Of a stretch of 61,039 nt of DNA, positions 9,986 to 61,037 are shown piece after piece. How positions within the stretch are numbered: position 1 is the first letter of the stretch; each line of letters starts with the position of its first letter. The notes under the pieces were generated by a model. It saw only the letters and a program-made list of their open reading frames with translations, did no database searches and had not been told where the DNA came from. This DNA comes from Candidatus Stahliibacteriota bacterium (GTDB lineage: Bacteria; Hydrothermota; Tepidihabitantia; SM23-42). The position numbers were made by a program, and so were the translations under genes. The stretch spans positions 1 to 61,039 of the forward strand of contig JAUVZL010000009.1 in the NCBI GenBank assembly GCA_030602565.1, written 5' to 3'.

Positions 9986-9987
9986 TT

Positions 9988-12358: not shown

Positions 12359-12363
12359 TTTTC

Positions 12364-12795: not shown

Positions 12796-12799
12796 TATA

Positions 12800-13722: not shown

Positions 13723-13744
13723 CCGGTTCCTTTCTTGGTGGATT

Positions 13745-13772
13745 ATTATATACATTTTTAAGATTGAGTCAA
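13745..13772 (-). promoter_or_regulatory. Promoter of the NuoE-led redox operon
   Basis: On the - strand TTGACT (13772-13767) and TATAAT (13750-13745) are 16 bp apart. The leader is short and carries the ribosome binding site AAGAAAGGAAC. Confidence 0.75.
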
Positions 13773-13791
13773 CATCAAGATTGCTTTTCGC

Positions 13792-13812
13792 ACTATTGCA
13801 AAATGCAATAGT
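13792..13812. promoter_or_regulatory. Palindromic operator candidate upstream of the redox operon
   Basis: ACTATTGCA-AAA-TGCAATAGT is a perfect palindrome centred about 64 bp before the predicted transcription start, a usual activator position. Its core TATnGCAnnnTGCnATA recurs in the gdhA upstream region at 15359-15375. Confidence 0.55.
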
Positions 13813-13931
13813 TACCCCTGCCCCGTGGAATAATAGAATAGAAATTACAGCCAACTAAAAATATGGCTTCAACAATGAAGTTAATCTGTTTAAAGATACC
13901 GATCTTTTGTATTCTACGGGGTAAATAAGCA

Positions 13932-40565: not shown

Positions 40566-40659
40566 TGGCGGAGGCGTGTAGGAATCGAACCTACCGTCCT
40601 CCTTTCGAAGGACATCTGGATTTGAAGTCCAGCAAGCACACCAGCACTTATCCACCTCC
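40566..40659 (-). tRNA. selC: tRNA-Sec (anticodon UCA)
   Basis: 94-nt tRNA. The acceptor stem starts GGAGGTG and ends CGCCTCC, followed by G and encoded CCA. The D arm has a long 6-bp stem (AAGTGC/GTGCTT, two wobble pairs). The anticodon arm CTGGA-CTTCAAA-TCCAG carries TCA (40623-40625 on the + strand as TGA). A long variable arm and the T arm GTAGG-TTCGATT-CCTAC follow. The eighth acceptor pair, normally closed in bacterial tRNA-Sec, is G-A. It belongs with selA and selB 5-8 kb away. Confidence 0.93.
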
Positions 40660-45408: not shown

Positions 45409-47331
45409 CTATCGGTATTTCTGCCCGAGGACCCTTACATCGCCTCGTTTGATAGTGATATTATGTGTGTCAAAGTAAATTAATAATGGTAAGACATATT
45501 TTCGGCTGGCACCGAGCATATCTCTGAACTGCGAAATCCTTATTTCTTTATTTTTTTTCAGGTACTCAATCAAATTCTCTTTGGCTTCAGCAACGTGCTT
45601 ATTATGAAATACAATCGATTCACCTACAGAAATAAGGATACCAGAGTCTATCATATATCGGTGGGCTTTCTTAATGGTTTTTTCATCGCCGAACCTTCGT
45701 TCTATTATTTCATTATAGCCTGGTGGTTTGTATTCAGCATCCAAATATAGTCTCTCGATTTTTCTGATCGCTGCATCCAGTTTTTTATCAAGGGTCACCT
45801 TGAAGTCGAATAGGCTTATCTTATTGTCGTCACTGATTTTTACGCTTTTCTGGTCAGACATCTTGTCAAGGGTGTAATTAATAAGGCTCTTGTCCATTGC
45901 TTTGCTAATGCTCTGCAGGAGTTCGAGTTTGCTCATGCCAATACTCGTTGGATTATGCTTGTGATATGCCTCGAGCTTACTCGCAATCATCGCCTTGAGT
46001 TTATCGAGGCTGGTCTGCAAATAGTACAGCCCTCTTGTTTTATCGAGCAAGAGCGCTCTGCTTTCGCTAATTAGTTTTTCGACTATCGTCTTGACTTCCC
46101 CAGGTGGCATATTTAGGTCATAGGCAATCTCATCTATTTTCTGCGGTACTTCGAAATTAGCAAGCAAATTTTCTTCAACCATTACCACAGTATCGCCAGT
46201 CTCGACTTTTTGGAGATGTTCGATTAGTTTTTCGTCAAAACCTTTGGCTTTGGTTGCTTTTGGGTCAATGATCGAACCGCCACCGATTGTTGTCTGTGGT
46301 GAATAGGTCCTTATAACATATCGATCACCTACATCACTCACCGCTGGTTTTTCAAGTCTGAACTGCGCCATCGCTTTGTCACCTGGTTGGAGTGTTTTTT
46401 TATCAAGGAGTACAATCCTGCCCAGAATTTCCTTGGTCTCTAAATGGATACGCAGGCGCGTAAGATTTCTCAAGGGTTTTTCCGCTGATCTGAGCAGATA
46501 CAATGAAGCATTCAGGAAATTAGATGGCTCATAAAATCCTGGTAGGGCAATGATATCGCCTCTTTTTATTTCGTCTTTTTCTACACCAACCAGATTTACT
46601 GCAGCTCGAAAACCAGTACTAACTTCATTGGTTTTTTCATTATGCACCTGGATACCCCTTACCTTCACTTTTTTCTTATAGGGGAGAAGCTCCAGCGTGT
46701 CACCGACCTTTATTTTTCCGGAAAGGACCGTACCTGCGACGACCGTACCAAAACCTTTGATTGTGAAACATCGGTCAATCGGCAGTCTGAAGATACCACG
46801 ATCTTTTTTTGCCTGTGTTTGGGCAATGAGTTCATCGAGTATTTTTTTAAGATTATCAATACCTTCACCAGTCGTGTTTGATACGGCGACTATCGGCGCA
46901 TTTTCAAGGAACGAACCAATCATCAATTTCTTGGTGTCTTCAATGACGAGGTGCAGCATATCTTCCTCAACCAGATCTTTTTTCGTAATAACGATTACGC
47001 CTTTCTTGATCTCCAGGAGTTTCAGGACTTCAAGGTGTTCGATGGTCTGCGGCATAATTCCATCGTCAGCAGCAATGACAAACATGACAAAGTCGATGGT
47101 GCTTGCGCCGGCGACCATGTGGCGCACGAATTTTTCATGACCAGGAACGTCGATGATTGTTACATCTTTGCCCAAAAAAGCAAAACCAAGGTCTGTGGTC
47201 ATGCCTCTTTCTTTTTCTTCTTTTAGTCGGTCTGGGTCATAGCCGGTCAAGGCTTTGATCAAAGCGCTCTTGCCGTGGTCAATATGACCTGCCGTGCCGA
47301 CAACGATGTGGCGCTTATCCATGTTGTCCAT
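45409..47331 (-). CDS. selB: Selenocysteine-specific elongation factor SelB
   Basis: 640 residues, normal length. It brings Sec-tRNA to UGA codons marked by a SECIS hairpin. The GTPase domain starts with GTAGHIDHGKSALIKALTG, then DVPGHEKFVRHM and the SelB-type guanine motif TKKDLVEED. EF-Tu-like domains II-III follow and four winged helices for SECIS binding fill about 390-640. The start could be the second Met (MDKRHIVVG). Works with SelA and tRNA-Sec in this window. Confidence 0.93.
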   Translation of the reverse strand: MDNMDKRHIVVGTAGHIDHGKSALIKALTGYDPDRLKEEKERGMTTDLGFAFLGKDVTIIDVPGHEKFVRHMVAGASTIDFVMFVIAADDGIMPQTIEHLEVLKLLEIKKGVIVITKKDLVEEDMLHLVIEDTKKLMIGSFLENAPIVAVSNTTGEGIDNLKKILDELIAQTQAKKDRGIFRLPIDRCFTIKGFGTVVAGTVLSGKIKVGDTLELLPYKKKVKVRGIQVHNEKTNEVSTGFRAAVNLVGVEKDEIKRGDIIALPGFYEPSNFLNASLYLLRSAEKPLRNLTRLRIHLETKEILGRIVLLDKKTLQPGDKAMAQFRLEKPAVSDVGDRYVIRTYSPQTTIGGGSIIDPKATKAKGFDEKLIEHLQKVETGDTVVMVEENLLANFEVPQKIDEIAYDLNMPPGEVKTIVEKLISESRALLLDKTRGLYYLQTSLDKLKAMIASKLEAYHKHNPTSIGMSKLELLQSISKAMDKSLINYTLDKMSDQKSVKISDDNKISLFDFKVTLDKKLDAAIRKIERLYLDAEYKPPGYNEIIERRFGDEKTIKKAHRYMIDSGILISVGESIVFHNKHVAEAKENLIEYLKKNKEIRISQFRDMLGASRKYVLPLLIYFDTHNITIKRGDVRVLGQKYR

Positions 47332-47577: not shown

Positions 47578-48978
47578 CTATATTGCTTTAAAAACATCTT
47601 TGAATGCGTTGATGATATATTGTTCTTCTTTTCGTAGTACGGTGCGGAAGTCAAGGAGAATCACACCTTCTGATACTCTGCCATAGATAGGTATATCACA
47701 CGTCCGCAATGCACGGGCAAGGTCCTGTACCGCCATGATTCTTGGTTTTACCGCTACGACAAAGGTCGGGAGTTGTTCGGTACTGAGTGAACCACCACCG
47801 ATTTCTGATACGTCTTTTTGCACTGATATTTCAAGTTGTTCCCTGAACTGCTTCTTGAGTTTTCCAGCGCATCTGGAAGCTTGGCGTTTGATGTCTTTAG
47901 TAGGTTTTAGAAGAATGCTCATGACGCCGTGATTTTTGAGGAAGGTTTCTTCTTTGTGCAAGAACAGTTGCAGCGTTGCTTCCAAAGCTTCATTTGCGAG
48001 TTTATCACACCGCAGTGCCCGGGTTAGCGGGTTCTTTTTTATTTTGTTGATGATTTGTTCTTTCCCAATGATAATACCGCACTGAGGACCACCAATGAGT
48101 TTATCGCCACTAAAACAGATGACATCAGCACCAGTTTTAACGCTGTCCTGCACAGTTGGTTCTTTTGGCAGACTGTGTTTGGAAAGGTCAATTAATGCGC
48201 CGCTCCCCAGATCGTCTATTACCGGCAAATTGTACTTCTTGCCGAGCTCAACGAGTTCGACAAGTGAGACCTCTTTAGTAAACCCAATTATCCGATAATT
48301 TGATTGGTGTACGCGCAGCAGTGCACCGGTATTTTCATTGATTGCGTCCTCGTAGTTCTCAAGATGCGTGCGGTTTGTGGTTCCGACTTCGTGCAATATT
48401 GCCCCGCTTTGTTCCATGATTTCTGGAATTCTAAAAGCCCCGCCAATTTCAATGAGTTGCCCTCGCGAGACAATGACTTCTTTGTTTTTGGCTAATGCAT
48501 TCAAGATTAAGAGTGTAGCACCTGCATTATTATTAACGATTATCCCTGCCTCAGCACCAGTTATCAAACTCAATAGCTGACTGATTTTTCTGTACCTGTC
48601 TGCCCGTCTTCCTTCTTCGTCAATTTGAAGTTGAGAGTATCCAAGTGAGGCATTGTGTAGGATATCAGCGATTCCATGACTGAATGGTGCGCGTCCGAGC
48701 CCGGTGTGGAGTACGATACCGAGTGCATTGACCGCGCGTCGGAAATATGGTCTCACCAGGTCTTTGAACTCGCACAGTATGCTATTTTCGAGAAAGTCCA
48801 AATCATAGTCTTCGCCAGCAAGTATCCGCTCTCTGAATTCGTCAATTTTATATCGTATTATCGCGGTGACATAACGTTGCTCTAATTGTTCAAGGAATTT
48901 CTGGAGCTCAGGCCACTGAAGTATTTTGTCAACCGCAGGTATGTTACGTAATATATCTTGCTTTTTCTTTTCTTCCAC
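47578..48978 (-). CDS. selA: L-seryl-tRNA(Sec) selenium transferase
   Basis: 466 residues. It converts Ser-tRNA(Sec) to selenocysteyl-tRNA using selenophosphate and PLP. Recognised by NALGIVLHTGLGRAPFS, NNNAGATLLIL, the PLP-lysine segment CFSGDKLIGGPQCG and RCDK. GTG start 5 nt after the -10 box. selD was not found in the window. Confidence 0.93.
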   Translation of the reverse strand: MEEKKKQDILRNIPAVDKILQWPELQKFLEQLEQRYVTAIIRYKIDEFRERILAGEDYDLDFLENSILCEFKDLVRPYFRRAVNALGIVLHTGLGRAPFSHGIADILHNASLGYSQLQIDEEGRRADRYRKISQLLSLITGAEAGIIVNNNAGATLLILNALAKNKEVIVSRGQLIEIGGAFRIPEIMEQSGAILHEVGTTNRTHLENYEDAINENTGALLRVHQSNYRIIGFTKEVSLVELVELGKKYNLPVIDDLGSGALIDLSKHSLPKEPTVQDSVKTGADVICFSGDKLIGGPQCGIIIGKEQIINKIKKNPLTRALRCDKLANEALEATLQLFLHKEETFLKNHGVMSILLKPTKDIKRQASRCAGKLKKQFREQLEISVQKDVSEIGGGSLSTEQLPTFVVAVKPRIMAVQDLARALRTCDIPIYGRVSEGVILLDFRTVLRKEEQYIINAFKDVFKAI

Positions 48979-49023: not shown

Positions 49024-49749
49024 CTATCTGAGTGAAACCGCTGCTCCGATTGCACCTATGAATTGCGGATGCTCGGGCACTATGACATCTTCGTATATTC
49101 GTTTCAATGCTTTCACAAGACCAGGATTGAGTGCGCCACCACCGCAGAAGAGTATCGGTTCCTCAATGCCAATCTGGGCGCCGAGGTTGACAATTCTGCG
49201 CATGAGCGAATCACATACTCCAGCAACTATGTCCCTGGGTTCTTTTCCTTCAGCTGTGAGACTGAGAATCTCAGATTCTGCCATTACTACGCAGAGAGAA
49301 TCAATAGTCTCCGGACTCGTTGACTGAAGCGCGAGCGTACCGAATTCTTTTAGGGTAAGGTTCAGAGCCTGGGCGATCTTCTCAACGAAATTGCCCGTTC
49401 CAGCAGCACATCTATCATTCATCACAAAACGGTCAACCCTGCCATCACGGACTTTTATTATCTTGCTGTCCTGACCACCGACATCAATGATTGTGCGGAT
49501 CAACGGGTTTGCCGCGAATGCACCTCTGCCAAACGCAGATATTTCTGTTATGACGTGGTCTGCATCTGACACTAGATTGCGACCATAACCAGTTGCCGCA
49601 ATTTTATCGAAATCACCGAGTTTCTTTTTGATTTCTGCAATGGCGATTTTGGGCTTGTAAGCAGTATTGACCACATACTCTTTTTTCACTCCATTGTCGA
49701 AAAGAACACCTTTGGTATAACAGGAGCCAACATCTAATCCCAGTACCAT
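49024..49749 (-). CDS. HgdC/BadF-type ATPase, activator of a 2-hydroxyacyl-CoA dehydratase-like enzyme
   Basis: 241 residues of the ASKHA family. These homodimers hold one 4Fe-4S cluster and push a low-potential electron into partner Fe-S proteins at the cost of ATP. Motifs are GLDVGSCYTKGVLFD, the phosphate loop IDVGGQDSKII, the cluster-ligand region MNDRCAAGTGNFVE and FCGGGALNPGLV. Last gene of the seven-gene operon; it overlaps the preceding methyltransferase gene by 16 nt. The partners should be the two HgdA/HgdB-like proteins. Confidence 0.9.
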   Translation of the reverse strand: MVLGLDVGSCYTKGVLFDNGVKKEYVVNTAYKPKIAIAEIKKKLGDFDKIAATGYGRNLVSDADHVITEISAFGRGAFAANPLIRTIIDVGGQDSKIIKVRDGRVDRFVMNDRCAAGTGNFVEKIAQALNLTLKEFGTLALQSTSPETIDSLCVVMAESEILSLTAEGKEPRDIVAGVCDSLMRRIVNLGAQIGIEEPILFCGGGALNPGLVKALKRIYEDVIVPEHPQFIGAIGAAVSLR

Positions 49750-50783
49750 GCTATTTCCTTTGAAGAATTAATAAATGCTTTGACATTTTCAATGGGTGTT
49801 CGGATGGGAACTTCACAGCCAGTAGAGGGGATATATCCTTTTGAAGAAACCATACCTTTTCGGACCATTTCTTTTGCCTCTTTTTCTATTTCACTGGGCG
49901 AAGAGAACGCGATCTTCGATGTGTCAAAATTACCAACAATACGCATTTTCTTTGATAACTTGTCCAGAGCCAGAGATATGTCTACTTTGTCCAAACTGAT
50001 GAGGTCTGCACCAGTGTTTGGTAGAAGCTCAAGAATCGGTTCTGTTTCACCACAAATATGGAGGATGATGTCGAGATCATAGCGGTGGAGAAAATCAATG
50101 AGCTTTCGCTCGTAAGGAAGTGCAAATTCCTCATATGCCTTGGGGCTGATTACACTCGATGATGCGAGCGGGTCGACAATAATCGGAAGACCTCCTGCAT
50201 TTATTATATGATAGCAGAATTCAATTGCTGCCTGGAGACAAATCTTCATGATGTCATGAACCAAGTCTGGGTGCCTTATTGTTTGAATCAAGAACGTATT
50301 AGGAACTGACAGCATCATGCCTGTGGTAAATGGCGCTGGAACATAAGCAAGGAGCGGTATTTTGTCTCCTACTGTAGCATAAGCATATTCAAGAGCCTCA
50401 AGATATACCGGGAGTCGTTTGTCGTTTTTAGGATCAGGGATGTCTATGCTCGAAAGAGATCTTTTTGTTAGTGCAGGTGTCTTGAGCACAGGGAGGTCAT
50501 CATCCGGATAGTCAAAATCAGATCCCATAGCTTCAGCTATGATGCCGACTTCCGAGAAAAAAGAAAGAGCATCATGCCGATACTCTTCAAGTGCGATGAT
50601 TTGCGCTTGAGCCATTGCTTTACCATCTGTATAGTATTTGCTTAAGGGTATCCTGGCAATATGCGCAGCATGAGATGTAATAAGGGGGATGATATTACAC
50701 CTATCTGGGTTTTCGTCGATTAATAGCAAGCCAAAACGTTCTCTTGGCGTGAGGATTTCGCGCTTACTATTTCCTTCGTTCAT
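49734..50783 (-). CDS. UroD/MtaA-family corrinoid methyltransferase, second copy
   Basis: 349 residues from the ATG that follows GAGGT and overlaps the preceding gene by 17 nt. UroD fold without decarboxylase signature. The zinc-thiol site of MtaA/MtbA-type methyltransferases is present: DIILHICGETEP and STGCEVP (His-x-Cys ... Cys). PAPFTTGMML and DPLASSSVISP resemble the other copy's FTLASFLTG and DPVASATVISP. One copy probably loads methyl groups onto the corrinoid protein and the other takes them off. Confidence 0.85.
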   Translation of the reverse strand: MNEGNSKREILTPRERFGLLLIDENPDRCNIIPLITSHAAHIARIPLSKYYTDGKAMAQAQIIALEEYRHDALSFFSEVGIIAEAMGSDFDYPDDDLPVLKTPALTKRSLSSIDIPDPKNDKRLPVYLEALEYAYATVGDKIPLLAYVPAPFTTGMMLSVPNTFLIQTIRHPDLVHDIMKICLQAAIEFCYHIINAGGLPIIVDPLASSSVISPKAYEEFALPYERKLIDFLHRYDLDIILHICGETEPILELLPNTGADLISLDKVDISLALDKLSKKMRIVGNFDTSKIAFSSPSEIEKEAKEMVRKGMVSSKGYIPSTGCEVPIRTPIENVKAFINSSKEIAWYWD

Positions 50784-52170
50784 GCAGGACCTCAGCAAAA
50801 GCCTGTAATCTTGTTTTGATCTGTTCGGTGATACCAAAAGGCGCGGGAACGTCAATAGCGAGTACTGGTTTATCTTTGAGCAATCGCTCCATTAATTTTG
50901 TCTCCATTGCGCAGTGAGAACCGCCCAACATGTTGGTAATCAAGATACCCTCAATCTTGCCTGTCCTCATTGCTTTATTTATTGAACTAATACGTTGTGC
51001 CGTGGAACCAATCAGTGACGCTTGCATAAAGGACTGAGCTAGTGCACGGAATGGTTCTATTTGCTCATCGATTTCAACGAGTGCTTGATTGATCACATAT
51101 TCAGTATCTACAACCCGTAAACCAATGCGTTCGACATAGTCCAGCAAATATGGATCTGCGGTTGGATTTACCCAGGCAATGGGTATTGCATCTTCCGAGA
51201 TGATGCCTATGTTTTTCTTGGTGCGTTCGACAATGGTTTCATAGATCATCTCGAGAATGCGAATCCACTCATCCATATCTGCATACCCGTAGAGATTACC
51301 AAATTCAATTGTCATCAATTCAAGTGCCGGAAATGGTGCGTTTCCCGCTTGGTATGTTGTTCGCTTGATTTTCTCAACGAGTGTCCGTACTTGGTTTGCT
51401 TTTTTTATACTCACCATGAGCAGGTTCTGATCATCGATACCGGTTATTTCGACCATTTTCTGCCATACTTTCTCGTATTCTTTGATTAGGTATTCTTCAA
51501 AACGCCGTGGGTACTCAAATCCGTTTTTCGTTTTTACGAGTGAGTCCATGGATACATGTTTAGCTGGGGAACGTCTCAGCGGTACTTCAAGCCACATAAA
51601 ATCATATCCTAAGTGCTCGATGGATTGCATGATGCATGAATAATCATCACATGTCGCACCAGTTGAGGCAAAGATATAGTCTGGTTTCGGGAAATAAGCT
51701 TTTTTGACAAAAGCAGCAAGTGCAGCCCGGGAAAAACAAGCTGCTTCAGGCGCGCCCAATTCAGAAGCCAAATCAAGCAACACGGTCGATTCATTGAAAA
51801 AAGGTGTCCACCAGATGCACTCGGGATAGAATGGTATGCAGTCTGGAAATGCCATCACAATAATCGATACTGTCCCAAGGTCACCCATTGTTGCAACAAT
51901 CTTCTTGCCACTTTGCCGTGCTCTGAACAGTCTTTCTGATTCATTGAAAACAAACCCCCACATCCTTAATGCCGCGAGAGAATTATCGAATCTAAGACGT
52001 CTAAGCTCACGCGTTCCATAAACCATGAATGTTGCTGGCGGCTGCAGGTAAAGTCCCCAATCATGGTTATTATAATACACAAATTTTTTGATAGTTTTAT
52101 TATCGATGTTCTTGAATCGCACACTCCACTCATCCATGGTTATTTTCTTGGGCTTAGGGTCTTTGTACAT
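50767..52170 (-). CDS. 2-hydroxyacyl-CoA dehydratase-family protein, larger subunit
   Basis: 467 residues related to HgdA/HgdB, benzoyl-CoA reductase subunits and double-cubane-cluster proteins. Candidate cluster ligands are in PECIWWTP, AACFSRAAL, TGATCDDYSC and GGSHCAMETK; the last, with LITNMLGG, matches the family's C-terminal Cys motif. It is larger than the second subunit and has an extra N-terminal 60 residues. Expected to accept electrons from the ASKHA activator. No CoA-transferase or acyl-CoA gene is nearby, so the substrate need not be a CoA ester. Confidence 0.8.
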   Translation of the reverse strand: MYKDPKPKKITMDEWSVRFKNIDNKTIKKFVYYNNHDWGLYLQPPATFMVYGTRELRRLRFDNSLAALRMWGFVFNESERLFRARQSGKKIVATMGDLGTVSIIVMAFPDCIPFYPECIWWTPFFNESTVLLDLASELGAPEAACFSRAALAAFVKKAYFPKPDYIFASTGATCDDYSCIMQSIEHLGYDFMWLEVPLRRSPAKHVSMDSLVKTKNGFEYPRRFEEYLIKEYEKVWQKMVEITGIDDQNLLMVSIKKANQVRTLVEKIKRTTYQAGNAPFPALELMTIEFGNLYGYADMDEWIRILEMIYETIVERTKKNIGIISEDAIPIAWVNPTADPYLLDYVERIGLRVVDTEYVINQALVEIDEQIEPFRALAQSFMQASLIGSTAQRISSINKAMRTGKIEGILITNMLGGSHCAMETKLMERLLKDKPVLAIDVPAPFGITEQIKTRLQAFAEVLHERRK

Positions 52171-52197
52171 ATACCGGTCCGTGATTGGTTGGTATGG

Positions 52198-53205
52198 TCA
52201 TGGAGCCAACATTTCGCCAAAAGCAGTAATTCGTGTTTTCAATTGACTGATTTTCTGAAAGGAATAGTCAGTTCGAATCCGCAAGAGGGGTAACCTGAAT
52301 CTTTCTTCCATCTTTTTAAGTTCAAACTCATATGAGTCACAGTAGTCAAGGGTGAACCCGATTATGCCATCACATATTCGCTTTTTGATTTGTCCTGCTA
52401 CGTGATCATAGAAAACCCTATTAGGCCTTCTGTATATACATGGCGGTTGATTATAGTACGCTTCTTTTATGCCTGATAGATTCTTCTCTGAGATGGAGAT
52501 ATTTAAGAACCTTGAAAGCCCGCATACAAAGTCACCAACAATACTTAAATCGTCTTCTAATAATCGAAGAAAATCACCACTTTCATATGATACTTCGCTG
52601 CCGATAAGATAAACTCTGGGTTTGCTCGAAGGTTTTTCAGAAAAGGTTGTTGGAATATTCACTTCGCCTTTATAATAGTACTGTGCTGCCGTATGGAAGT
52701 CAGACGTTAATAGGGTGGTGGGTCTTGACATTCTCTTTGCATCGAGTTCGCGCATGATTCGGCGTACTGTTTCCCATGATTCAATTTCCCGTACAAGTCT
52801 TTCGGTTATTTTTTCTCCAGATAGATATTCAAGTTGTTTTACCAACCAGTCTATTTCGTTAGAAAAAATTTGCCGATTATCCGTTCTTGGCATATGCATC
52901 AGATATACAGGTATTCTTGTGTGTTCGCCAAGGATATCAAACATTCTTCGCGACATATCACATCCTGTGGTACCAACGAGCGCCGCGAACTTAGATTTGT
53001 TTTCTATGACATAGGCGATATTCGCCCGTACTAGCGGACACGCATCAATCCTTGCATATCGGGTACCCTGTTGCATGAGCGCGTAATCACCATGTAATAA
53101 ACAATAGGGTTTACATCCTGTGCTAGAAAGGATTTCTATTGGGATATGAGGACAGGTGTAGCCGATTAGCCTTGTATCCGGAATATCTGATGGATTTAAT
53201 TCCAT
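52198..53205 (-). CDS. 2-hydroxyacyl-CoA dehydratase-family protein, smaller subunit (HgdB-like)
   Basis: 335 residues. The family pattern is clear: GYTCPHIPIEIL, the Cys in DACPLVRAN, GTTGCDMSRRM, then RVYLIGSEV and a late Cys motif in FTLDYCDSYEFE. The three N-terminal Cys positions fit ligands of a 4Fe-4S or double-cubane cluster. The start overlaps the RACo stop by 10 nt, and the larger subunit follows 27 nt later. It probably forms a heterodimer with it. Confidence 0.83.
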   Translation of the reverse strand: MELNPSDIPDTRLIGYTCPHIPIEILSSTGCKPYCLLHGDYALMQQGTRYARIDACPLVRANIAYVIENKSKFAALVGTTGCDMSRRMFDILGEHTRIPVYLMHMPRTDNRQIFSNEIDWLVKQLEYLSGEKITERLVREIESWETVRRIMRELDAKRMSRPTTLLTSDFHTAAQYYYKGEVNIPTTFSEKPSSKPRVYLIGSEVSYESGDFLRLLEDDLSIVGDFVCGLSRFLNISISEKNLSGIKEAYYNQPPCIYRRPNRVFYDHVAGQIKKRICDGIIGFTLDYCDSYEFELKKMEERFRLPLLRIRTDYSFQKISQLKTRITAFGEMLAP

Positions 53206-54626
53206 GGTGCCAGTTTAAGTGATGCTACGAATACTTCCTGGAAATTAGGTTGAGCTGCAAGATCAATGTGTATGCTATGTTCACGTATTGTTTCAACCTG
53301 ATGGAATATATTATTGTTCTTGATCGCCATTACTGCGCCCTGGAGTGGCAAGTCCTTGTTGAACGATACCTTTTTAGTACCTTTTGGTATTAAGCCGATT
53401 TTTACCAATGCATTGACATCCAGTCTTGAACCGAACTCACCGGTAATGACCACTTCATCAATATTTTTCGGTGCAGTTTTTGCGTGATGGAGCAGTATCT
53501 TAATTCCGCTGTGTATTGCGCCAATTGCAAGTTGTAGTTTGCGTATATCATTTTGGCTTATGCATATCCGGGAGGAGATCGGCACAGCATATTTGAGCCT
53601 GCCATTGTCTTTGAGTATGCTGCGTTCAAGGAGGATGCTGAGCAGATCGATTAAACCAGAAGCGCAGAGACCAATCGGTGTCTTGTTATCGATCGTATGA
53701 AATCTGAGTGCACCTTTAGCGTATGAAACCCGGTCAATAGCACCGGGAAGAGCCAGGCTGCCACAAGTGACACCGATACCCTCAAAAGCAGGACCTGCGG
53801 CAGTTGAAGCTGCATAGATATTCTTACCGCGTATCAAAACGACTTCACCATTTGTTCCAAGGTCAATGTACAGACTATTCTTACCGCTCTTGTGCATTCG
53901 GCTTTGCAGTATTCCAGAGATTGTATCGCCACCGACAAAACCACCAATAATCGGGAAGACGTAGCGCGGAGGGTTCTTCAGGAAGATACCTTTGTTTAGA
54001 TTGCTCGTAAATGGATACTGCGCAAAGCCATTGACTGGTTCATGAAGATAAAATGAGAGCATCACCGGGTTGCCCACAATAATTGTGATTGCAGGTTTTT
54101 GTATGCCCAAGCAGTTTTTCAGTTGCTTGAGGCTCGAGTACAGCAGTTTGCTCAGGATATCATATTTGCCGTCAATCGAAGCGCCAACTCTTGTAAGGAC
54201 ATCGCCACCAATGCTGTTTTGGAGGTTATATACGCTGGATATCTTCTCGGCGCTGCCGGTTTTCAGATTTACAGCTGCTCCTTTGATCACGGTTGTACCG
54301 ATATCGAGAGCCAATCCGTAATTGGCATTTAGCCTGGTGAATTTCACTTTTTTAAGACGCGGGATATCAATCGTCATATCGTGAGTGATTTTGTGCTGAC
54401 AGGCAAGACGGTAACCTTGCTTGAGTGCGCTTTGTGGGATAAATAAGGTCTCGCGTTCAGCCGGAGGTTTTTGGGGAGTGATGATTCTTACGCGGCATGA
54501 ACCGCATCTACCTTTACCACCGCAGGTGGCAATGATCGGGATGCCATTTTTAGCAAGACAGTCAATAAGTTTGGTGGATTTTTTTACCTTGAAAGTGCCG
54601 TGTTTTTTAATTGTCAGTATATTCAT
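53196..54626 (-). CDS. RACo-type reductive activator of corrinoid proteins
   Basis: 476 residues from the MNILTIKK start, 20 nt inside the preceding gene. The N-terminal 2Fe-2S ferredoxin (CGGKGRCGSCRV, then ACQH) is followed by a long ASKHA ATPase domain: LALDIGTTVIKGAAV, LYIDLGTNGEVVL and VVITGEFGSRLD. RACo proteins use ATP to drive reduction of inactive Co(II) corrinoid to Co(I). Its presence strongly supports a corrinoid methyl-transfer role for the operon. Confidence 0.9.
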   Translation of the reverse strand: MNILTIKKHGTFKVKKSTKLIDCLAKNGIPIIATCGGKGRCGSCRVRIITPQKPPAERETLFIPQSALKQGYRLACQHKITHDMTIDIPRLKKVKFTRLNANYGLALDIGTTVIKGAAVNLKTGSAEKISSVYNLQNSIGGDVLTRVGASIDGKYDILSKLLYSSLKQLKNCLGIQKPAITIIVGNPVMLSFYLHEPVNGFAQYPFTSNLNKGIFLKNPPRYVFPIIGGFVGGDTISGILQSRMHKSGKNSLYIDLGTNGEVVLIRGKNIYAASTAAGPAFEGIGVTCGSLALPGAIDRVSYAKGALRFHTIDNKTPIGLCASGLIDLLSILLERSILKDNGRLKYAVPISSRICISQNDIRKLQLAIGAIHSGIKILLHHAKTAPKNIDEVVITGEFGSRLDVNALVKIGLIPKGTKKVSFNKDLPLQGAVMAIKNNNIFHQVETIREHSIHIDLAAQPNFQEVFVASLKLAPWN

Positions 54627-55524
54627 GTGCCCACCCAATCATTGCTTTTATATTGTCAGGATTCGTTTCAACCGGCACATCACAAGAAGTCGACAAAATA
54701 AGACGAGGTTCCTGTAACGCTCTTTCCATTTCTGTTCTTATATCAGCTGGGGAACCGCGCAATATCGTGGATGTTGATACGCCACCCATTTTCAGGGTTG
54801 TCGATTTTATGGTTATGTCTTCAATACTAAGAATATCGGTTCCAAGTGTATCAAGCATGGGGATGAGTGGTGCTGTGTCGCCGCAGATGTGTATGCCTGA
54901 CAAAGCACCTTTTTTTCTTATCATGGAAAGGAGTATTTTGAGAGGTTCATAAGCAAAATCTCTAAAGACTACAGGTGATATCACTGTTGCTGAGGCAACC
55001 GGGTCACCGATGAATATATTCGCACCCACTTCAAGTAACCGTTCAAGATACTTGGTTTGAAAATCAAGAGCTTGTTCGATGACCGCCTTTGCATGCGTTG
55101 GATCCTTAAGGAGCATCTTGAGAAAATCTTGCATCCCAGTAAGAAAAGAAGCGAGTGTGAAAGGACCCTTGATCGATACAAAAAGCGGAACTTTAATTTT
55201 CTCCATAAGAATTTGCGCCGCCTTGATGATTTCGTTAGTTCTGTCAAACCCTTGTATTGACCTGGGACCGAGTAATGTGGAGTAGGGCGTAAAGCGAACT
55301 GGACAGCCGAGAGCTTGTGCTTCGATATATGCGTCCAAGAAGAGAAGGACCATGTCATATTGATAGCAGTTATACCCATGGGTAAGGACCTGCGCGATCT
55401 TTTCACCATCAATCGCGACGTCAGAGAATTTCACGTTCGCTATATGTGCACAGTGGTCAACACAGACAATCGGGAAAATTGCAAAATGGCTGTCTTTGTT
55501 GATGACCGGGGTTATTCTATCCAA
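54607..55524 (-). CDS. UroD/MtaA-family corrinoid methyltransferase, first copy
   Basis: 305 residues with a TTG start overlapping the corrinoid gene stop by 8 nt. The MtaA-type zinc site is seen as GIHICGDTAPL and STSCDVPVET. FTLASFLTG and FIGDPVASATVISP are family blocks. Shorter than the paralogue at 49734 by some 40 residues. Likely transfers a methyl group between a substrate or thiol and the corrinoid protein encoded just upstream. Confidence 0.87.
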   Translation of the reverse strand: MDRITPVINKDSHFAIFPIVCVDHCAHIANVKFSDVAIDGEKIAQVLTHGYNCYQYDMVLLFLDAYIEAQALGCPVRFTPYSTLLGPRSIQGFDRTNEIIKAAQILMEKIKVPLFVSIKGPFTLASFLTGMQDFLKMLLKDPTHAKAVIEQALDFQTKYLERLLEVGANIFIGDPVASATVISPVVFRDFAYEPLKILLSMIRKKGALSGIHICGDTAPLIPMLDTLGTDILSIEDITIKSTTLKMGGVSTSTILRGSPADIRTEMERALQEPRLILSTSCDVPVETNPDNIKAMIGWAHEYTDN

Positions 55525-56149
55525 TGGTGATTTTTTTGATGAGTTTTACTGCTTGCATGGCGTCCTCAGCATAGCCGTCAGCTCCGATTCTGTTGGCGAA
55601 TTCCTCGTTTACTGGAGCGCCACCGACAATGACTTTTATGTTCCTACGCATCTTTTTCTTTATGAGTTCTTTAATGACTTCTTCCATATGGACGAGTGTT
55701 GTGGTCATTAGACTCGACATTGCGAGGACCGCAGGTTTTTCTATGGTCACGGCTTTGATGAAGCGTTCAGTTGATACATCTTTACCGAGGTCCATGATAT
55801 CATATCCTGAAGCCTCGATAAGTACTTTTACGATGTTCTTGCCTATATCATGGATATCGCCTTTGACAACACCGATGATCACCTTTGTTTTTTTCTCAGT
55901 CGATTGTGATTTAATCAATGGGCTTACGATATTGAATCCGGCATAGAATGCTTCTGAGGCAAGGAGTACTTCTGGCACATAGTATTCCTTTCGGGTAAAG
56001 AGTTCACCCACTTCTTTCATGCCTGGAATCAAACAGTTATTGAGGATATCCTGCGGAGCCAGTCCTTGTTTGAGTGCTGTATTTACTAGTTGAGCGGTCT
56101 TCACGTCATCCATTTCGATGACGGCTTTTCTTATCTCATCGAGTTTCAA
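55517..56149 (-). CDS. Methyltransferase cognate corrinoid protein
   Basis: 210 residues from a TTG behind GGGAG, the usual family size; longer starts are possible. The N-terminal helical cap (residues 1-85) is followed by a B12 domain with the cobalt-ligand motif GDIHDIGKNIV, then SSLMTTTLVHM and IVGGAPVNEEFANRIGADGYAEDA. Carries the methyl group on cobalt between the UroD-type methyltransferases. First gene of the overlapping seven-gene operon. Confidence 0.93.
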   Translation of the reverse strand: MKLDEIRKAVIEMDDVKTAQLVNTALKQGLAPQDILNNCLIPGMKEVGELFTRKEYYVPEVLLASEAFYAGFNIVSPLIKSQSTEKKTKVIIGVVKGDIHDIGKNIVKVLIEASGYDIMDLGKDVSTERFIKAVTIEKPAVLAMSSLMTTTLVHMEEVIKELIKKKMRRNIKVIVGGAPVNEEFANRIGADGYAEDAMQAVKLIKKITIG

Positions 56150-56198
56150 ATTTACTCCCTGCATTTGCAACAATGATAATCGAATTGCATAGTTACGT

Positions 56199-56257
56199 TA
56201 TCCTCCCTCCTTTGCTCTCTGAAATAGAAGAGAACGGCAATAGAAGGAGGGAGGATA
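56199..56257. repeat. Long-arm hairpin between corrinoid and SAM methyltransferase genes
   Basis: TATCCTCCCTCCTT pairs with AAGGAGGGAGGATA across a 31-nt loop. It may terminate or process the upstream message. Related stems occur at 9085 and 47412. Confidence 0.65.
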
Positions 56258-56267
56258 AATTGTGATT

Positions 56268-57062
56268 TTATTTCTGTACAATAAAGAATCCACGTCCGAC
56301 TTTGTGTTCGTTTGCTGCCTTACGCCAGATCGTCACAAGATTAGATGCGAAATCAAAGAGGTCCTGTCCGAAGTTCTCCATTATTGTCGGTTTTAATTTG
56401 ACGTGTACTGTATCGTAATATTCATCAAAGCACTTTGCATAAGCTTCTGTTTGGTCCTGCGCATCGAGTATTTTGAATCCATTATTCTTCAGCAATTCCT
56501 GATAACCCTGGAACGTTTCCATATATGGAAATGACATTGTGTCATAGAGGGGGCTGAGTTCTGCTTCAGTGATTTCACCCGTTATGATCCAGTCAGTGAA
56601 GCCCATTTTACCACCAGGTTTTAGCACACGGTATGCTTCTTTAATCAACTTGTCTTTGTCAGTAACATAACACCATGCTTCTTGAGCCCACACTATATCA
56701 AAGGATTCATCTTCATACGGAAGGTCCATTACATTGCCTTCATGAAATTCAATCTTATCAGCAAGCCCTGCTCTCTTAGTTCTTTCACGCGCCTTTTCTA
56801 TCATGGTTTTGGTCATATCAACGCCTTTTACTGTGACACCATATTTTTGTACTATCTGGCGGGCAGGTGCACCGAGTGCACTACAAAGGTCGAGTACAGT
56901 CATACCTTTATTCAGCCTCAGTGCTTTGGCCAATGCATCAGTGGCTTCTGCTGCTCCTGAGTGTATCTGCTCGCTCATTACTGCTTCCCAAAGTAAGCCA
57001 CCAGGACCGTCATAAACTTCCATTACCTCTTTTTCAGCATACGGTTTCTTAAATTGTCCCAT
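56268..57062 (-). CDS. SAM-dependent methyltransferase, sarcosine/dimethylglycine-type
   Basis: 264 residues, class I Rossmann methyltransferase. The SAM site reads VLDLCSALGAPARQI, GVDMTKTM and EGNVMDLPYEDESFDIV; the WAQEAWCYVTDK and GFTDWIITG blocks resemble glycine betaine-forming (sarcosine/dimethylglycine) and related N-methyltransferases. It sits between the ABC/outer-membrane genes and the corrinoid operon, with a leader copied from the outer-membrane gene. Whether it makes a methylated solute or works on the imported compound is unknown. Confidence 0.82.
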   Translation of the reverse strand: MGQFKKPYAEKEVMEVYDGPGGLLWEAVMSEQIHSGAAEATDALAKALRLNKGMTVLDLCSALGAPARQIVQKYGVTVKGVDMTKTMIEKARERTKRAGLADKIEFHEGNVMDLPYEDESFDIVWAQEAWCYVTDKDKLIKEAYRVLKPGGKMGFTDWIITGEITEAELSPLYDTMSFPYMETFQGYQELLKNNGFKILDAQDQTEAYAKCFDEYYDTVHVKLKPTIMENFGQDLFDFASNLVTIWRKAANEHKVGRGFFIVQK

Positions 57063-57180
57063 ATTTCCTCCTTTCTCTTTCTACGAAAGAGTCGATTACC
57101 CCATAAGTTTGACAACTTACGGGGCAAGCAATGATATTATTGTGATTATCCCGATTTTTCATATTAGATAATATATCGGT
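57063..57180 (-). promoter_or_regulatory. Conserved leader with hairpin before the SAM methyltransferase
   Basis: On the - strand GACTCTTTCGTAGAAAGAG folds into a 7-bp stem (57091-57075) and is followed at once by AAAGGAGG and the ATG. Upstream sequence AATAATATCA and AAAATCG matches the leader at 58205-58275. This copy has an inserted CCCCATAAGTT/AACTTACGGGG stem (57099-57124). Confidence 0.7.
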
Positions 57181-57313
57181 AAATCGAGGATCCCGCCAAG
57201 CGGGACAGAGATATTCTGTTGCTTCATTGGTTTTATGCGTAGGTTTTGTTTTCAGAATTCACCTCCTTTTTATTATTTGTCTATATATTTATAGTATTAC
57301 AGGCAAAACAGAG

Positions 57314-57345
57314 GCCATGGTGTCTGCCGAAACAGACACCATGGC
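57314..57345 (-). terminator. Terminator after the outer-membrane protein gene
   Basis: Perfect 13-bp stem GCCATGGTGTCTG with a 6-nt loop, 16 nt after the stop, followed on the - strand by CTCTGTTTT. Confidence 0.8.
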
Positions 57346-57361
57346 TGATTATACTTACCCA

Positions 57362-58204
57362 TTAGAATTTCACAACGTACCAGACATCAAAACCGATTTT
57401 CCACGGGAAATTACTGCCGCCCTGGTTCACCATTTCAAGCGGATAAGTGAATTTCGGTCTCAAACTCAGGCCCTTTGCAGGTGTTGCTACGAGACCCGGA
57501 ATGATATTCAGACGACGCTGTTGCGTATTGTCAAGTGAAGTCCCGGTCGAGTCTTTTGCCTGCATGGTTTCCATAAAGCTGAAGTTCAAGAATGCTTTGA
57601 TTTGCTTATTGAACACGTAGTCTATTTTGAAGATGGCTTCGATTTGATCGCCGACATCAATATCCGCGTCATTTTTCATATTATACCAATAACCGGCTTT
57701 CAAATGGAAGATGACAGGAACCATTTTGTACATAAATAATGCGCCAACCGCAATATCTAAGGTGCGGTCGTCAAGCGAAATATCGAGGTCTTTACTTGAT
57801 GTCGGAATACGTACTGCTGCGGTACCGGTAAAGAATGGTTGATCTTTCCCTCCGATGAACTGATAACGTGTTTTTACCCACATATCCTGTAAACCCATCG
57901 AGCTTAAAGTATCCCTACTCTTATACATGACAGGGACATGAACCATGAGTTCCCATTTGTCTATTGGTGCATAGCCAAGCATGAAATGTCCACTCATAAC
58001 ATCAGTTTGGCTTGCACTGGGAAGGTCGGTCCATTCTTCATTTGCCCAGCTCCATGATCTGGTCGTTGTGGAATAACCAAATCCACCCATGAAGATACCT
58101 GCACCAGCAGGTATTGCCTTGGCTCCACGCCATAGCAGTGGCGTAGCATTAGCTATGTTCACGATAAGTAACAATGCAAAGATCAGGCAGGTTATTTTTT
58201 TCAT
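57362..58204 (-). CDS. Outer-membrane beta-barrel protein, transporter-like
   Basis: 280 residues. A clear signal peptide (MKKITCLIFALLLIVNIANA) is followed by alternating beta strands (GAGIFMGGFGYSTTTRSW, WELMVHVPVMY, TRYQFIGG) and a terminal Phe (DVWYVVKF), typical of outer-membrane barrels. Resembles the transporter/phenol-degradation MetA-like barrels by style only. With the ABC importer genes upstream it may be the outer gate for the same solute. Shares its leader with the SAM methyltransferase gene. Confidence 0.75.
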   Translation of the reverse strand: MKKITCLIFALLLIVNIANATPLLWRGAKAIPAGAGIFMGGFGYSTTTRSWSWANEEWTDLPSASQTDVMSGHFMLGYAPIDKWELMVHVPVMYKSRDTLSSMGLQDMWVKTRYQFIGGKDQPFFTGTAAVRIPTSSKDLDISLDDRTLDIAVGALFMYKMVPVIFHLKAGYWYNMKNDADIDVGDQIEAIFKIDYVFNKQIKAFLNFSFMETMQAKDSTGTSLDNTQQRRLNIIPGLVATPAKGLSLRPKFTYPLEMVNQGGSNFPWKIGFDVWYVVKF

Positions 58205-58310
58205 TTTTTCCTCCTTACTCTTTCTTCGAAAGAGTCGATTACAGTGATATTATTATGATTACAGCGATTTTTATGTTTCCACTTTACTGTTTCTACGAAA
58301 GAGTTGATTA
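58205..58310 (-). promoter_or_regulatory. Duplicated leader hairpins before the outer-membrane gene
   Basis: ACTCTTTC-GAA-GAAAGAGT (58235-58217, - strand) lies just before AAGGAGG and the ATG. A further copy of the hairpin motif (TTTCTACGAAAGAG on the + strand) is at 58290-58303. The upstream AATAATATCA and AAAATCG parts match the 57063-57180 leader. No gene lies between here and 58412. Confidence 0.7.
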
Positions 58311-58412
58311 AAACGGTCATCTTCTGATTACATAGATATTGATTATTTTGCTCCCCTCTTGCGTGGGGCAAAGATTCATATCCTATGAAGCGGTATATTT
58401 TTGATTCTAAGT

Positions 58413-59201
58413 TTATAAAGCACCTCGTTGGTTATTCGTATTTGTGATTAGGATTTTTTCCAGAACTTCTCGTATCTTTATATGTAATTTTAAAAAACCC
58501 TGGGAGCGGCGGTCGCGCGGTCTCGCCAGGTCAACCTTGATTTCGTCATTAATACAACCAGGCCGGTCGCGCATAATAAGGATGCGACTTGCCAAGAATA
58601 TCGCTTCGTCGATATTATGTGTAACAAAAACCACGGTTTTCCTTTCTTTTTGCCACACTGCTAAAAGTTTAGCTTGCAGACGATGTCTTGTCCTTTCATC
58701 AAGTGCCCCAAAGGGTTCGTCGAGCAATAACAGTTTAGGGTTGTGTGCCAGAGCTCTTGCTATGGCTACTCTTTGTTGCATGCCTCCTGATAGCTCATAA
58801 GGGAGTGCTTTTTCAAAACCAGTAAGACCAACAAGGTTGATGAACTTCCGTGCCTCCAGATAACGTGTTTTCTTTGGGATTTTTTTCATTTCGAGACTGA
58901 AACATACATTATCAATGACATTACACCATGGAAAGAGTGAATACTGCTGGAAGACAAGCGTCGCTTCACGGTTCAGACCTTGTATGACCGTATCGGCAAG
59001 GATGATATCACCCTCACTCGGTTGTTCAAGACCAGCGATGAGTCTAAGCAGGGTTGTTTTACCACACCCGGTAGGTCCGACAATACAGAGAAATTCGCCA
59101 TCTTGACAATCAAAAGATAGGTCAGAAAGAGCGATGACTTCTTCTTTTCGTTCACCGAGAAAGGTTTTTCCGATATTATTGATTCTGAGAAATGACATCA
59201 T
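58413..59201 (-). CDS. ABC transporter ATP-binding protein (nitrate/sulfonate/taurine class)
   Basis: 262 residues from the ATG that overlaps the permease stop and follows AAAGGAG. Walker A GPTGCGKTTLLR, Q loop QQYSLFPW, signature LSGGMQQRVAIARAL and Walker B LLLLDEPFGALD are intact. Closest in style to SsuB/TauB/NrtD. Drives import of the ligand bound by the protein encoded two genes upstream. Confidence 0.9.
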   Translation of the reverse strand: MMSFLRINNIGKTFLGERKEEVIALSDLSFDCQDGEFLCIVGPTGCGKTTLLRLIAGLEQPSEGDIILADTVIQGLNREATLVFQQYSLFPWCNVIDNVCFSLEMKKIPKKTRYLEARKFINLVGLTGFEKALPYELSGGMQQRVAIARALAHNPKLLLLDEPFGALDERTRHRLQAKLLAVWQKERKTVVFVTHNIDEAIFLASRILIMRDRPGCINDEIKVDLARPRDRRSQGFLKLHIKIREVLEKILITNTNNQRGAL

Positions 59202-60016
59202 CGCTCCTTTGCCTGCCATATTGATGTTCGATCGGCAAGTACTTTCACCCCATAACTCAGGAGGGCACCGACCGCACCGATCAGAATCATACTGGCGATG
59301 AGGATATCCATCTCTGCGAGTTCATATGAGAATATGATGAGATATCCGATGCCAGCATCACTACCAGGCAGCATTTCAGCGGCAATGATTACCATCCATG
59401 AAATACCGAGGCCTACTCTCAATCCAGTGAGGATTGATGGCAACGAAGATGGGAAAATCACTTTTTTGAACAGTTTTTTCTGATCTGCTCCGAGGAGTAA
59501 TGCGGATTCAATGTAGAGATGTTTGACAGATTTGACACCGTGTACAGTATTCAGAAAAATCGGAAAGAATCCACCGTAGAAAATGACGTACAGCATACCA
59601 AGCTGGATTTGACCAAAAATACTCGTGGTATAGTGTGCACCAAACATATCCGCGATAGTATAGGTTTTGAAGATAGCCATAGCAAATGGGATCCAGGCAA
59701 TGGGGCATAAAGGTCGTAATAATTCGATAATCGGGCTGAACAGCCTATGGAAAAGGAGGTATCTACCGACCAAAAGGCCCAGCGGAATCCCAATAACTGC
59801 TGCTAAAATAAACCCGAGAACAACCCTTGAGGCGCTTACAATTATGTGGCGTACAAAGCTCCCTGTGTTGAGAAGGTCGGTAAATGGATGTACCAGACGG
59901 CTGATTACATCACCGACTCTCGGTAAAAGCGCAGGGTTATTTGCCTGTATGGCAAAGAATTCCCACACCGCGATAATAATAATTGGAATCACGAGACCGA
60001 GTAAGATAGATCTCAA
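59198..60016 (-). CDS. ABC transporter permease (nitrate/sulfonate/taurine class)
   Basis: 272 residues with a TTG start, 7 nt after the binding-protein stop. Six hydrophobic segments and the BPD-transport coupling loop ESALLLGADQKKLFKKVIFPSSLP are present, as in SsuC/TauC. Partner of the adjacent ATPase. Confidence 0.9.
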   Translation of the reverse strand: MRSILLGLVIPIIIIAVWEFFAIQANNPALLPRVGDVISRLVHPFTDLLNTGSFVRHIIVSASRVVLGFILAAVIGIPLGLLVGRYLLFHRLFSPIIELLRPLCPIAWIPFAMAIFKTYTIADMFGAHYTTSIFGQIQLGMLYVIFYGGFFPIFLNTVHGVKSVKHLYIESALLLGADQKKLFKKVIFPSSLPSILTGLRVGLGISWMVIIAAEMLPGSDAGIGYLIIFSYELAEMDILIASMILIGAVGALLSYGVKVLADRTSIWQAKER

Positions 60017-60023
60017 TATCTTG

Positions 60024-61037
60024 CTAATACCACTTCTCCAGTTTTAGTTCTTCGGCGGCTTTTTCAAGGGCGCTGAAGTCATACAGGATATCTTCGACCT
60101 CTTTATCTTTTTTGTCTTTTAACTTGTCATTCAATTTACCCAGGCCGTTCATTTCGTCAATCCAGACTTGCATTGTTTTTTTCCAGTAATCAGTAGGATT
60201 TGTTATGTATCCAGATGTTGGTATTGATTTTTCTTCTACTTCAATAGAGGTTCCAATCCATTTGGATGCGTCCTCAATAGCTACTTCTGGATCTTCATTC
60301 ATATAGTTTGTAGCCAGGATGATCAACTTAAGAAATTCTTTGATCACTTCTTTTTTCTCAATCATTGCCTGGTCAGTAGCGCCAATACAACAACATGGAT
60401 GGTCTTTCCAAATACCAGGTGGTAATTCATTAAGATCAGCCACACATTTACCTACCCCTTTGGTTTCAGCAATTGCACACCAGGGATTATTCGATACATA
60501 ACCGTCAATAATATTGTTCTGAAGTCCGGGGACTAAGTTCTTCTCGCCTTTCATGTGAACCATAAGAATGTCTTTTGTTCTATCAGATTTATCACTTGTG
60601 TAGGTTAGTCCTTCTTCGACAAGCGCTCTTTCAAAGATTAATTTAGCAATAGCAACCGGGTTTTTGAATCCGATTCTAATCGGTTCTTTAAATTTCTTTA
60701 CCCATTTAACGAATTCTCCCCATGATTCTACCGGGTTATCAGGTTGGAGAACAAGCATGTCACCTTTTGTATGTAGGGGTGCGATAATCTTCATGGGTGA
60801 ACCTTTGTCAGTGAAAAAGGCAACTGCTGCAACACCGCCAAAACCGACTTCAAAATGTCCTTGCGCCATTAACGTCGGCATTTTAGAACCGCCGCCTGAC
60901 AGGTATAGTTCTACATCAGCGATTTTTTTGTCTCCTTTCATCAATTCATAATGTTTCTTTGCTTCAGCCTCTTTCAAGTATACATTGCAGTCTTCTTTTG
61001 TCCTTTCGTGTTCAAGGCAAGCAACATAGAGCGCAGT
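60024..61037 (-). CDS. ABC substrate-binding protein, NrtA/SsuA-like, 5' end beyond the window
   Basis: The frame is open to the right edge, so the N-terminus and signal are missing. The visible 337 residues have the NMT1/SsuA fold: VELYLSGGGSKMPTLMAQGHFEVGFGG split over two strands, PIRIGFKNPVAIAKL and IDGYVSNNPWCAIAE. A CCC run (DHPCCCIGA) and the early CLEHERTKEDC are unusual and could bind metal or cofactor. The ligand is not readable; a methylated or sulfur/nitrogen compound for the nearby operon is a guess. Confidence 0.82.
   Translation of the reverse strand, partial: TALYVACLEHERTKEDCNVYLKEAEAKKHYELMKGDKKIADVELYLSGGGSKMPTLMAQGHFEVGFGGVAAVAFFTDKGSPMKIIAPLHTKGDMLVLQPDNPVESWGEFVKWVKKFKEPIRIGFKNPVAIAKLIFERALVEEGLTYTSDKSDRTKDILMVHMKGEKNLVPGLQNNIIDGYVSNNPWCAIAETKGVGKCVADLNELPPGIWKDHPCCCIGATDQAMIEKKEVIKEFLKLIILATNYMNEDPEVAIEDASKWIGTSIEVEEKSIPTSGYITNPTDYWKKTMQVWIDEMNGLGKLNDKLKDKKDKEVEDILYDFSALEKAAEELKLEKWY

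Follow-up and report, generated by a model that had tools for sequence, protein, structure and literature searches.

A seven-gene operon on the minus strand of a 61,039-nt contig (positions 49024-56173 of JAUVZL010000009.1, C49) from a Candidatus Stahliibacteriota assembly (GCA_030602565.1; 2.74 Mb in 104 contigs) was found to join a corrinoid methyl-transfer system to a predicted ATP-driven reductase resembling benzoyl-CoA reductase. The operon has, in our judgement, an even chance of serving selenium-linked methyl-chalcogen processing, in which selenide (or sulfide) would be freed from methylated compounds for selenoprotein synthesis. The window analysed was the entire contig. Open reading frames (ORFs) were called and assigned with Pfam and NCBIfam profiles; the genes run 5' to 3' as CORR, UROD1, RACO, HGDB, HGDA, UROD2 and ACTV, and the group is headed by an S-adenosylmethionine (SAM) methyltransferase gene, SAMMT, separated from CORR by a 94-nt gap:

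56268..57062, minus strand: SAMMT, class I SAM methyltransferase (Methyltransf_11)
55517..56173, minus strand: CORR, cognate corrinoid protein for the methyltransferase, with a GDIHDIGKN cobalamin motif (Pfam B12-binding, B12-binding_2)
54607..55524, minus strand: UROD1, MtaA-like UroD methyltransferase with HxC...C zinc ligands (Pfam URO-D)
53196..54638, minus strand: RACO, corrinoid reductive activase (RACo) with [2Fe-2S] and ASKHA domains (Pfam Fer2, Raco_middle, RACo_C_ter)
52198..53205, minus strand: HGDB, HgdB/BzdN-like subunit (HGD-D, 181 bits)
50767..52170, minus strand: HGDA, HgdA/BzdO-like subunit with an N-terminal extension (HGD-D, 112 bits)
49734..50855, minus strand: UROD2, MtaA-like UroD methyltransferase with HxC...C zinc ligands (URO-D)
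49024..49749, minus strand: ACTV, ASKHA ATPase of the acyl-CoA dehydratase activase type, putative activator of HGDA/HGDB (BcrAD_BadFG; TIGR00241, 233.8 bits against a cut-off of 125.4)

By ORF ends, ACTV overlaps UROD2 by 16 nt, HGDB overlaps RACO by 10 nt and UROD1 overlaps CORR by 8 nt, and HGDA and HGDB are separated by a 27-nt gap. For UROD2 and RACO, internal ATGs (~50783 and ~54626) are the probable starts and would give overlaps of 17 and 20 nt, respectively. A first-pass annotation of the window had described seven close or overlapping genes of these families in one direction, and the ORF calls and profile searches agreed with it.

Relatives of HGDA were found in 38 of 147 WOR-3 genomes surveyed, the named relatives being metagenome-assembled genomes (MAGs) deposited as candidate division WOR-3 or Stahlbacteria. 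Regions were fetched for 35 HGDA-positive loci; two of these (L033 and L034) share 98.9% identical DNA and were counted once as a single organism, which ruled them out as two independent minimal clusters. The order SAMMT-CORR-UROD1-RACO-HGDB-HGDA-UROD2-ACTV, complete or lacking single members, was recovered in most of the 35 regions, with protein identities among clusters of ~25-83%. Because the same gene order is present in more than 30 genomes at this divergence, the arrangement is not attributable to chance. The suggestion of the first-pass annotation that the corrinoid, UroD, RACo and HgdA/HgdB/activator genes belong together is thus supported, in that they form one conserved unit in WOR-3, and neither of the outcomes that it had named as refuting, HgdA/B genes beside these methyltransferases in this assembly alone or always with CoA ligases, was encountered in that phylum.

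Individual members are retained to different degrees. Within the phylum, UROD2 orthologues (E<1e-100) are confined to HGDA genomes, 37 of the 38 having one; the remaining genome, G105, carries a shortened HGDA match. UROD1 is missing in one lineage (G081/G091) and in G109, which have one UroD only. The RACo family (PF14574) is absent genome-wide in 11 of the 38, including single-contig MAGs (G086, G087 and G088) of 93-97% estimated completeness, and these 11 retain CORR, a UroD and HGDA/HGDB; both RACo and HGDA are kept in the remaining 27. Any single absence from a MAG may reflect assembly loss, but this does not readily account for the several genomes of one genus in which RACo is missing from an otherwise intact local order.

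The SAM methyltransferase had been noted previously as an upstream neighbour; its position was correct, but it belongs to the core of the system. SAMMT orthologues occur in exactly the 38 HGDA-positive WOR-3 genomes, in some of them outside the cluster, and in none of the other 109. A cluster was also found in a MAG deposited as Planctomycetia (L081, genome G147), and a second survey therefore covered 392 genomes of that phylum, with HGDA counted whether full or split: all 18 HGDA-positive genomes carry SAMMT, as does one of the other 374 (p ~4e-30). SAMMT is therefore a core and obligate partner of the HGDA/HGDB reductase, and this strict pairing is well replicated in two phyla. The protein has two invariant cysteines, Cys60 in the SAM-binding motif and Cys131 in AWCYV, and its nearest named models (sarcosine/dimethylglycine, arsenite and phosphoethanolamine methyltransferases) are all well below cut-off or distant.

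In the second phylum the complete eight-gene order was present in three genomes (G147, G271 and G316), and most other loci (~14) carry SAMMT, HGDB, HGDA and ACTV with no corrinoid protein or UroD alongside; G147 holds both kinds. Since most second-phylum loci show these four genes alone, SAMMT and the reductase make up the most conserved unit, and the B12-dependent part is optional outside WOR-3, with the limit that some of these loci stop at contig ends and corrinoid genes may lie elsewhere in the genome. The earlier proposal of a joined methyl-transfer and reductase pathway accordingly holds within WOR-3 and is not universal. The reduced loci frequently carry a canonical double-cubane cluster protein (DCCP) scoring over the NF040772 cut-off. 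At L131 and L157-L170 of this phylum, a paralogous SAMMT-(DCCP)-HGDB-HGDA-ACTV cluster with no corrinoid protein or UroD alongside was observed, and at some of these loci selD, selA and selB are neighbours.

The pathway context to which these genes point, and which the first-pass annotation did not report, is selenium metabolism, with selA, selB, tRNA-Sec and selD. Three of these lie downstream of ACTV in the same direction, with selA directly adjacent, and the tRNA was the sole match in Rfam and tRNA scans:

47578..48978, minus strand: selA, selenocysteine synthase (PF03841, 470 bits; TIGR00474, 544 bits)
45409..47331, minus strand: selB, selenocysteine-specific elongation factor (SelB winged-helix and EF-Tu domains)
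40566..40659, minus strand: tRNA-Sec (selC) (ARAGORN; Rfam RF01852, 77 bits)

In WOR-3, selA scored over cut-off in 35 of 38 HGDA-positive genomes versus 24 of 109 HGDA-negative ones; within the same taxonomic class the contrast is 35/38 versus 12/27 (p=4e-5, uncorrected for relatedness and hence optimistic). No HGDA-positive WOR-3 genome lacks both selA and selD, and in 22 of the 38 the distance from HGDA to selA or selD is under 12 kb, where chance would give ~2% per genome. The arrangement varies: the family to which the window's genome belongs has selA and selB downstream, and other lineages have selD upstream. Two parallel losses within genera point the same way: G100 is missing HGDA, selA and an over-cut-off selD, all three of which its congeners G098 and G099 have, and G119 is missing the same three, its congener G120 having HGDA and selD. 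In the second phylum, selD, selA or selB adjoin the cluster in G434, G431 and G426. A listing from 2015 includes an HGD-D subunit and an activase among proteins associated with selenium genes. HGDA itself was considered as a selenoprotein and rejected: an "internal" TGA had been listed in five relatives, and on alignment every TGA proved to be the natural C-terminal stop. The selD of the window's genome (G000:C55:16851-17753), like most selD genes in the phylum, has a single TGA in frame, as would be expected if SelD were a selenoprotein.

The corrinoid half was compared with the mlp clusters of Kountz & Balskus (2023; PMC10418091), who linked a His-Cys-Cys zinc site to S/Se substrates, found that Mlp2 of C. 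ljungdahlii methylates selenide from methylcobalamin, and proposed that type 1 mlp clusters, which often include a double-cubane protein, serve in the salvage of methyl selenides. Type 1 clusters are defined by members of the Mlp2 and Mlp3 clades and have at least two UroD proteins more than 25% identical to a characterised SCMT; UROD1 is 29.9% identical to MtaA (4ay7) over 204 positions and UROD2 26.7%. They also have co-directional genes within 2 kb for a corrinoid protein and a Ram/RACE protein, as found in the window (RACo being absent in the 11 relatives), and His-Cys-Cys zinc ligands, as found in both UroD proteins. These ligands are invariant in UROD1 (32/32 sequences); in UROD2 the His and first Cys are present in 36 of 36 and the last Cys in 35 of 36, with one gap. 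The cobalamin-motif His of CORR is present in 37 of 37 aligned sequences, and its best NCBIfam models are MtgC/MtbC-like, all below cut-off. Type 1 clusters further have no tetrahydrofolate methylase within 20 kb; on the selA side the scan of the main ORFs turned up none, and on the other side the contig continues for 5 kb past the cluster. In its UroD proteins, its corrinoid and RACE proteins and its zinc ligands, the corrinoid half fits the type 1 definition. MetH was rejected as a user of RACo, no Met_synt_B12 domain being present in the genome.

The likeness to type 1 mlp clusters extends to their compact, single-strand layout of a corrinoid protein, two MtaA-like UroD proteins with the His-Cys-Cys site and a RACE protein, often with a double-cubane protein, a reductase and sel genes, in anaerobes with the selenium trait. 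The operon differs in having a two-subunit HGDA/HGDB pair as its reductase in place of a single DCCP, in the obligate SAM methyltransferase, and in the dispensability of RACo and one UroD in some relatives. Nitrogenase-like MarHDK reductases accompany the non-selenium clusters (PMC10418091); a selenium counterpart might, by analogy, use HGDA/HGDB/ACTV as its reductase. The sdm genes for dimethylselenide use in Methanococcus (PMC11097638) likewise comprise a corrinoid protein and methyltransferases (SdmABC) serving methylated selenium, but are archaeal and were described with neither a reductase nor a SAM methyltransferase.

In class I benzoyl-CoA reductase, the [8Fe-9S] cluster of BzdN is bound by Cys36/73/100/263/293/327 and the aqua-[4Fe-4S] cluster of BzdO by Cys95/128/380 (PMC11971306). 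HGDB carries six cysteines (18/56/82/228/256/289) at a spacing of 38/26/146/28/33 versus 37/27/163/30/34 in BzdN, and HGDA carries three (C145/C174/C420) at 29/246 versus 33/252 in BzdO, so that the six-Cys plus three-Cys subunit pattern of BzdNO/MbdON (8s02, 9g87) is matched at the level of predicted cluster ligands. All six HGDB cysteines are present in 32 of 37 WOR-3-type sequences, and all three of HGDA in 25 of 27 aligned members of the two phyla. HGDA Cys118, invariant in a first alignment, was rejected as a fourth ligand because it is not invariant in the second phylum, and a universal double cubane was rejected on the finding that second-phylum HGDB mostly keeps three of the six cysteines; these three-Cys forms often stand beside a canonical DCCP, although the complementarity is imperfect. 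ACTV has two invariant cysteines (114 and 153). The electron route would run, as in class I benzoyl-CoA reductase, from ACTV to a double cubane in HGDB and on to an open cluster in HGDA. The operon differs from BzdNO/MbdON in lacking CoA-pathway genes, in the N-terminal extension of HGDA and in having one activator gene versus BzdP/BzdQ.

An AlphaFold2 (AF2) model of HGDA (predicted local distance difference test, pLDDT, 77; predicted template modelling score, pTM, 0.84; poor loops at the cluster ligands) matched DCCP, HadBC and BzdNO in Foldseek and no other fold convincingly. DCCP with its reductase DCCP-R (6eno, 7yzm) offers the closest structures for HGDA and the closest sequence for HGDB, shares the ASKHA activator gene and the six-Cys set of HGDB, and differs in that the operon has two unlike subunits, only three ligand cysteines in HGDA, and scores under the NF040772 cut-off of 350 (139.8 bits for HGDB, 45.6 for HGDA). 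HGDB likewise falls short of the BzdN and BcrC equivalogs (31.5 against 453.8 and 20.8 against 421.15; HGDA was listed for neither), and the HadC model gave 44.7 bits against 700. Because the scores lie far under the cut-offs of all named families, no membership is claimed for HGDA or HGDB, and the likeness is a resemblance in ligands and fold. In four WOR-3 loci (L039, L040, L041 and L052) a second pair of HGD-D and activase genes, 23-24% identical to HGDB, was observed upstream of SAMMT; this pair is not in the window's genome, which has two HGD-D proteins in total. A small ~100-residue protein with ferredoxin-thioredoxin-reductase-like Cys motifs was seen near the cluster in L040, L043, L044, L046, L048 and L051.

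Upstream of SAMMT, the outer-membrane protein and ATP-binding cassette (ABC) importer of the first-pass annotation were recovered:

57362..58204, minus strand: predicted outer-membrane beta-barrel of no family (AF2 model closest to FapF and to the COG4313 channel 4rl8)
58413..59219, minus strand: ABC importer ATPase (best NCBIfam model SaoA, 254 bits, under the cut-off of 360)
59198..60016, minus strand: ABC importer permease (BPD_transp_1)
60024..61037, minus strand: NMT1-like substrate-binding protein, N-terminus cut by the contig end (NMT1_2)

These genes (57362-61037) adjoin the operon in G075, G082 and G072 and lie on its other side in G120, and are a candidate importer for the operon's substrate.

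The substrate and order of reactions that we infer draw on gene content and order, ligand residues, the co-occurrence of HGDA with SAMMT and the sel linkage. The importer would bring in a methylated Se or S compound, on which SAMMT and the ATP-driven HGDA/HGDB reductase would act as one obligate unit. ATP hydrolysis by ACTV would drive electrons into the HGDB double-cubane cluster and on to the open [4Fe-4S] site in HGDA, where the chalcogen compound would be reduced or reductively cleaved. The zinc His-Cys-Cys UroD enzymes would pass the methyl group from selenol or thiol compounds to the corrinoid protein and then to a thiol, RACo, where present, would restore Co(I), and the selenide released would go to SelD and selenocysteine synthesis.

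Several points weigh against this selenium-linked processing. The second-phylum selA contrast is not significant (16/18 versus 14/20 sampled, p=0.24), selA being common there. Several selA-positive genomes lack the operon, and the operon is therefore not needed for selenoprotein synthesis. No selenoprotein is encoded within it, and the sel genes could be adjacent for reasons other than a common pathway. The weakest point is the role of SAMMT: type 1 mlp clusters are described without a SAM methyltransferase, and an enzyme that adds methyl groups is awkward in a demethylation pathway. SAMMT may serve to detoxify or activate a chalcogen by methylating it. A variant that takes the pairing as its starting point is held tentatively, as possible but short of probable: the core would be an undescribed two-enzyme unit in which the Cys-bearing SAMMT and the ATP-driven benzoyl-CoA-reductase-like heterodimer act on a selenium compound, e.g. 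a selenoether methylated to a selenonium and then reductively cleaved, with the B12 genes as an add-on recovering methyl groups and RACo not required.

That HGDA/HGDB/ACTV is an alternative ATP-driven corrinoid activase, making Co(I) in RACo's stead, is considered unlikely. The 11 genomes without PF14574 that keep CORR, a UroD and HGDA/HGDB are what such a role would predict, and the converse was not clearly seen, the cluster of G115, the sole RACo-positive, HGDA-negative genome of the class, being cut by a contig end. A simple replacement of RACo was at first favoured on these absences. The occurrence of both systems in 27 of 38 genomes argues against it, as do the ~14 second-phylum loci in which the reductase evidently works without corrinoid genes alongside, and on the latter the idea was weakened.

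Quite unlikely, too, is the handling of metalloids or organometals (As, Te, Hg, organo-Se), akin to the selenocysteine-assisted organometallic (SAO) system, in which SAMMT would use its cysteines to methylate a metalloid, to be recycled or detoxified by the rest. SAMMT gives 90 bits, below cut-off, to arsenite methyltransferase models, one of its two invariant cysteines lies in the SAM-binding motif, and the operon shares with SAO a selenium context and an ABC ATPase whose best model is SaoA. SAMMT is, however, better matched by sarcosine/dimethylglycine and phosphoethanolamine N-methyltransferases, its Cys positions appear to differ from the ArsM pattern, no other Sao protein was matched among those scanned, and no arsenic genes were seen nearby.

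Little probability is given to catabolic methylotrophy, in which imported methoxy, methylamine or methylthio compounds would be demethylated for carbon and energy and the product reduced. The ABC importer and barrel upstream and the MtgC/MtbC-type affinity of CORR (below cut-off) would suit it, and the first-pass annotation had named methylamines, methylthio and methoxy compounds as ones to test. This reading, with methylamine or methoxy substrates, is not favoured: the zinc ligands of UROD1 and UROD2 are of the S/Se type, the sel genes are tightly associated, the importer is adjacent in few relatives, and no tetrahydrofolate methyltransferase was present among the window proteins scanned.

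A role for HGDA/HGDB in the fermentation of amino acids or aromatics, as a classical (R)-2-hydroxyacyl-CoA dehydratase or a benzoyl-CoA reductase, is very improbable, and the doubt that the first-pass annotation cast on hydroxyacyl-CoA dehydration is supported. Although the fold and Cys pattern are common to HadBC and BzdNO and an AMP-binding (CoA-ligase family) gene lies ~11 kb from the selA end of the operon on the opposite strand (36307-37953), the scores are far under the HadC, BzdN and BcrC cut-offs, and what is conserved around the pair is a SAM methyltransferase and sel genes, with no CoA enzyme prominent among recurring neighbours. That annotation had stated that no CoA ligase, CoA transferase or hydratase partner is nearby; none was recognised in the conserved neighbourhoods of the operon's relatives, and the AMP-binding gene was not among recurring neighbours as far as seen. 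Elsewhere in the window (3275-13854), NuoEFG/NfnB-like proteins and a [FeFe]-hydrogenase-like protein (PF02906, Complex1_51K) were observed, possibly an electron-bifurcating hydrogenase complex.

The physiological substrate of DCCP-type double-cubane proteins is unknown, benzoyl-CoA reductase being the sole double-cubane enzyme with a defined role (PMC11971306). The operon narrows the search for such a substrate to methyl-chalcogen chemistry and offers a compact, testable gene set, and its RACo-less relatives are a natural experiment on corrinoid protein reactivation. If the selenium-linked reading is true, it would give uncultured phyla a further way of recovering selenium.

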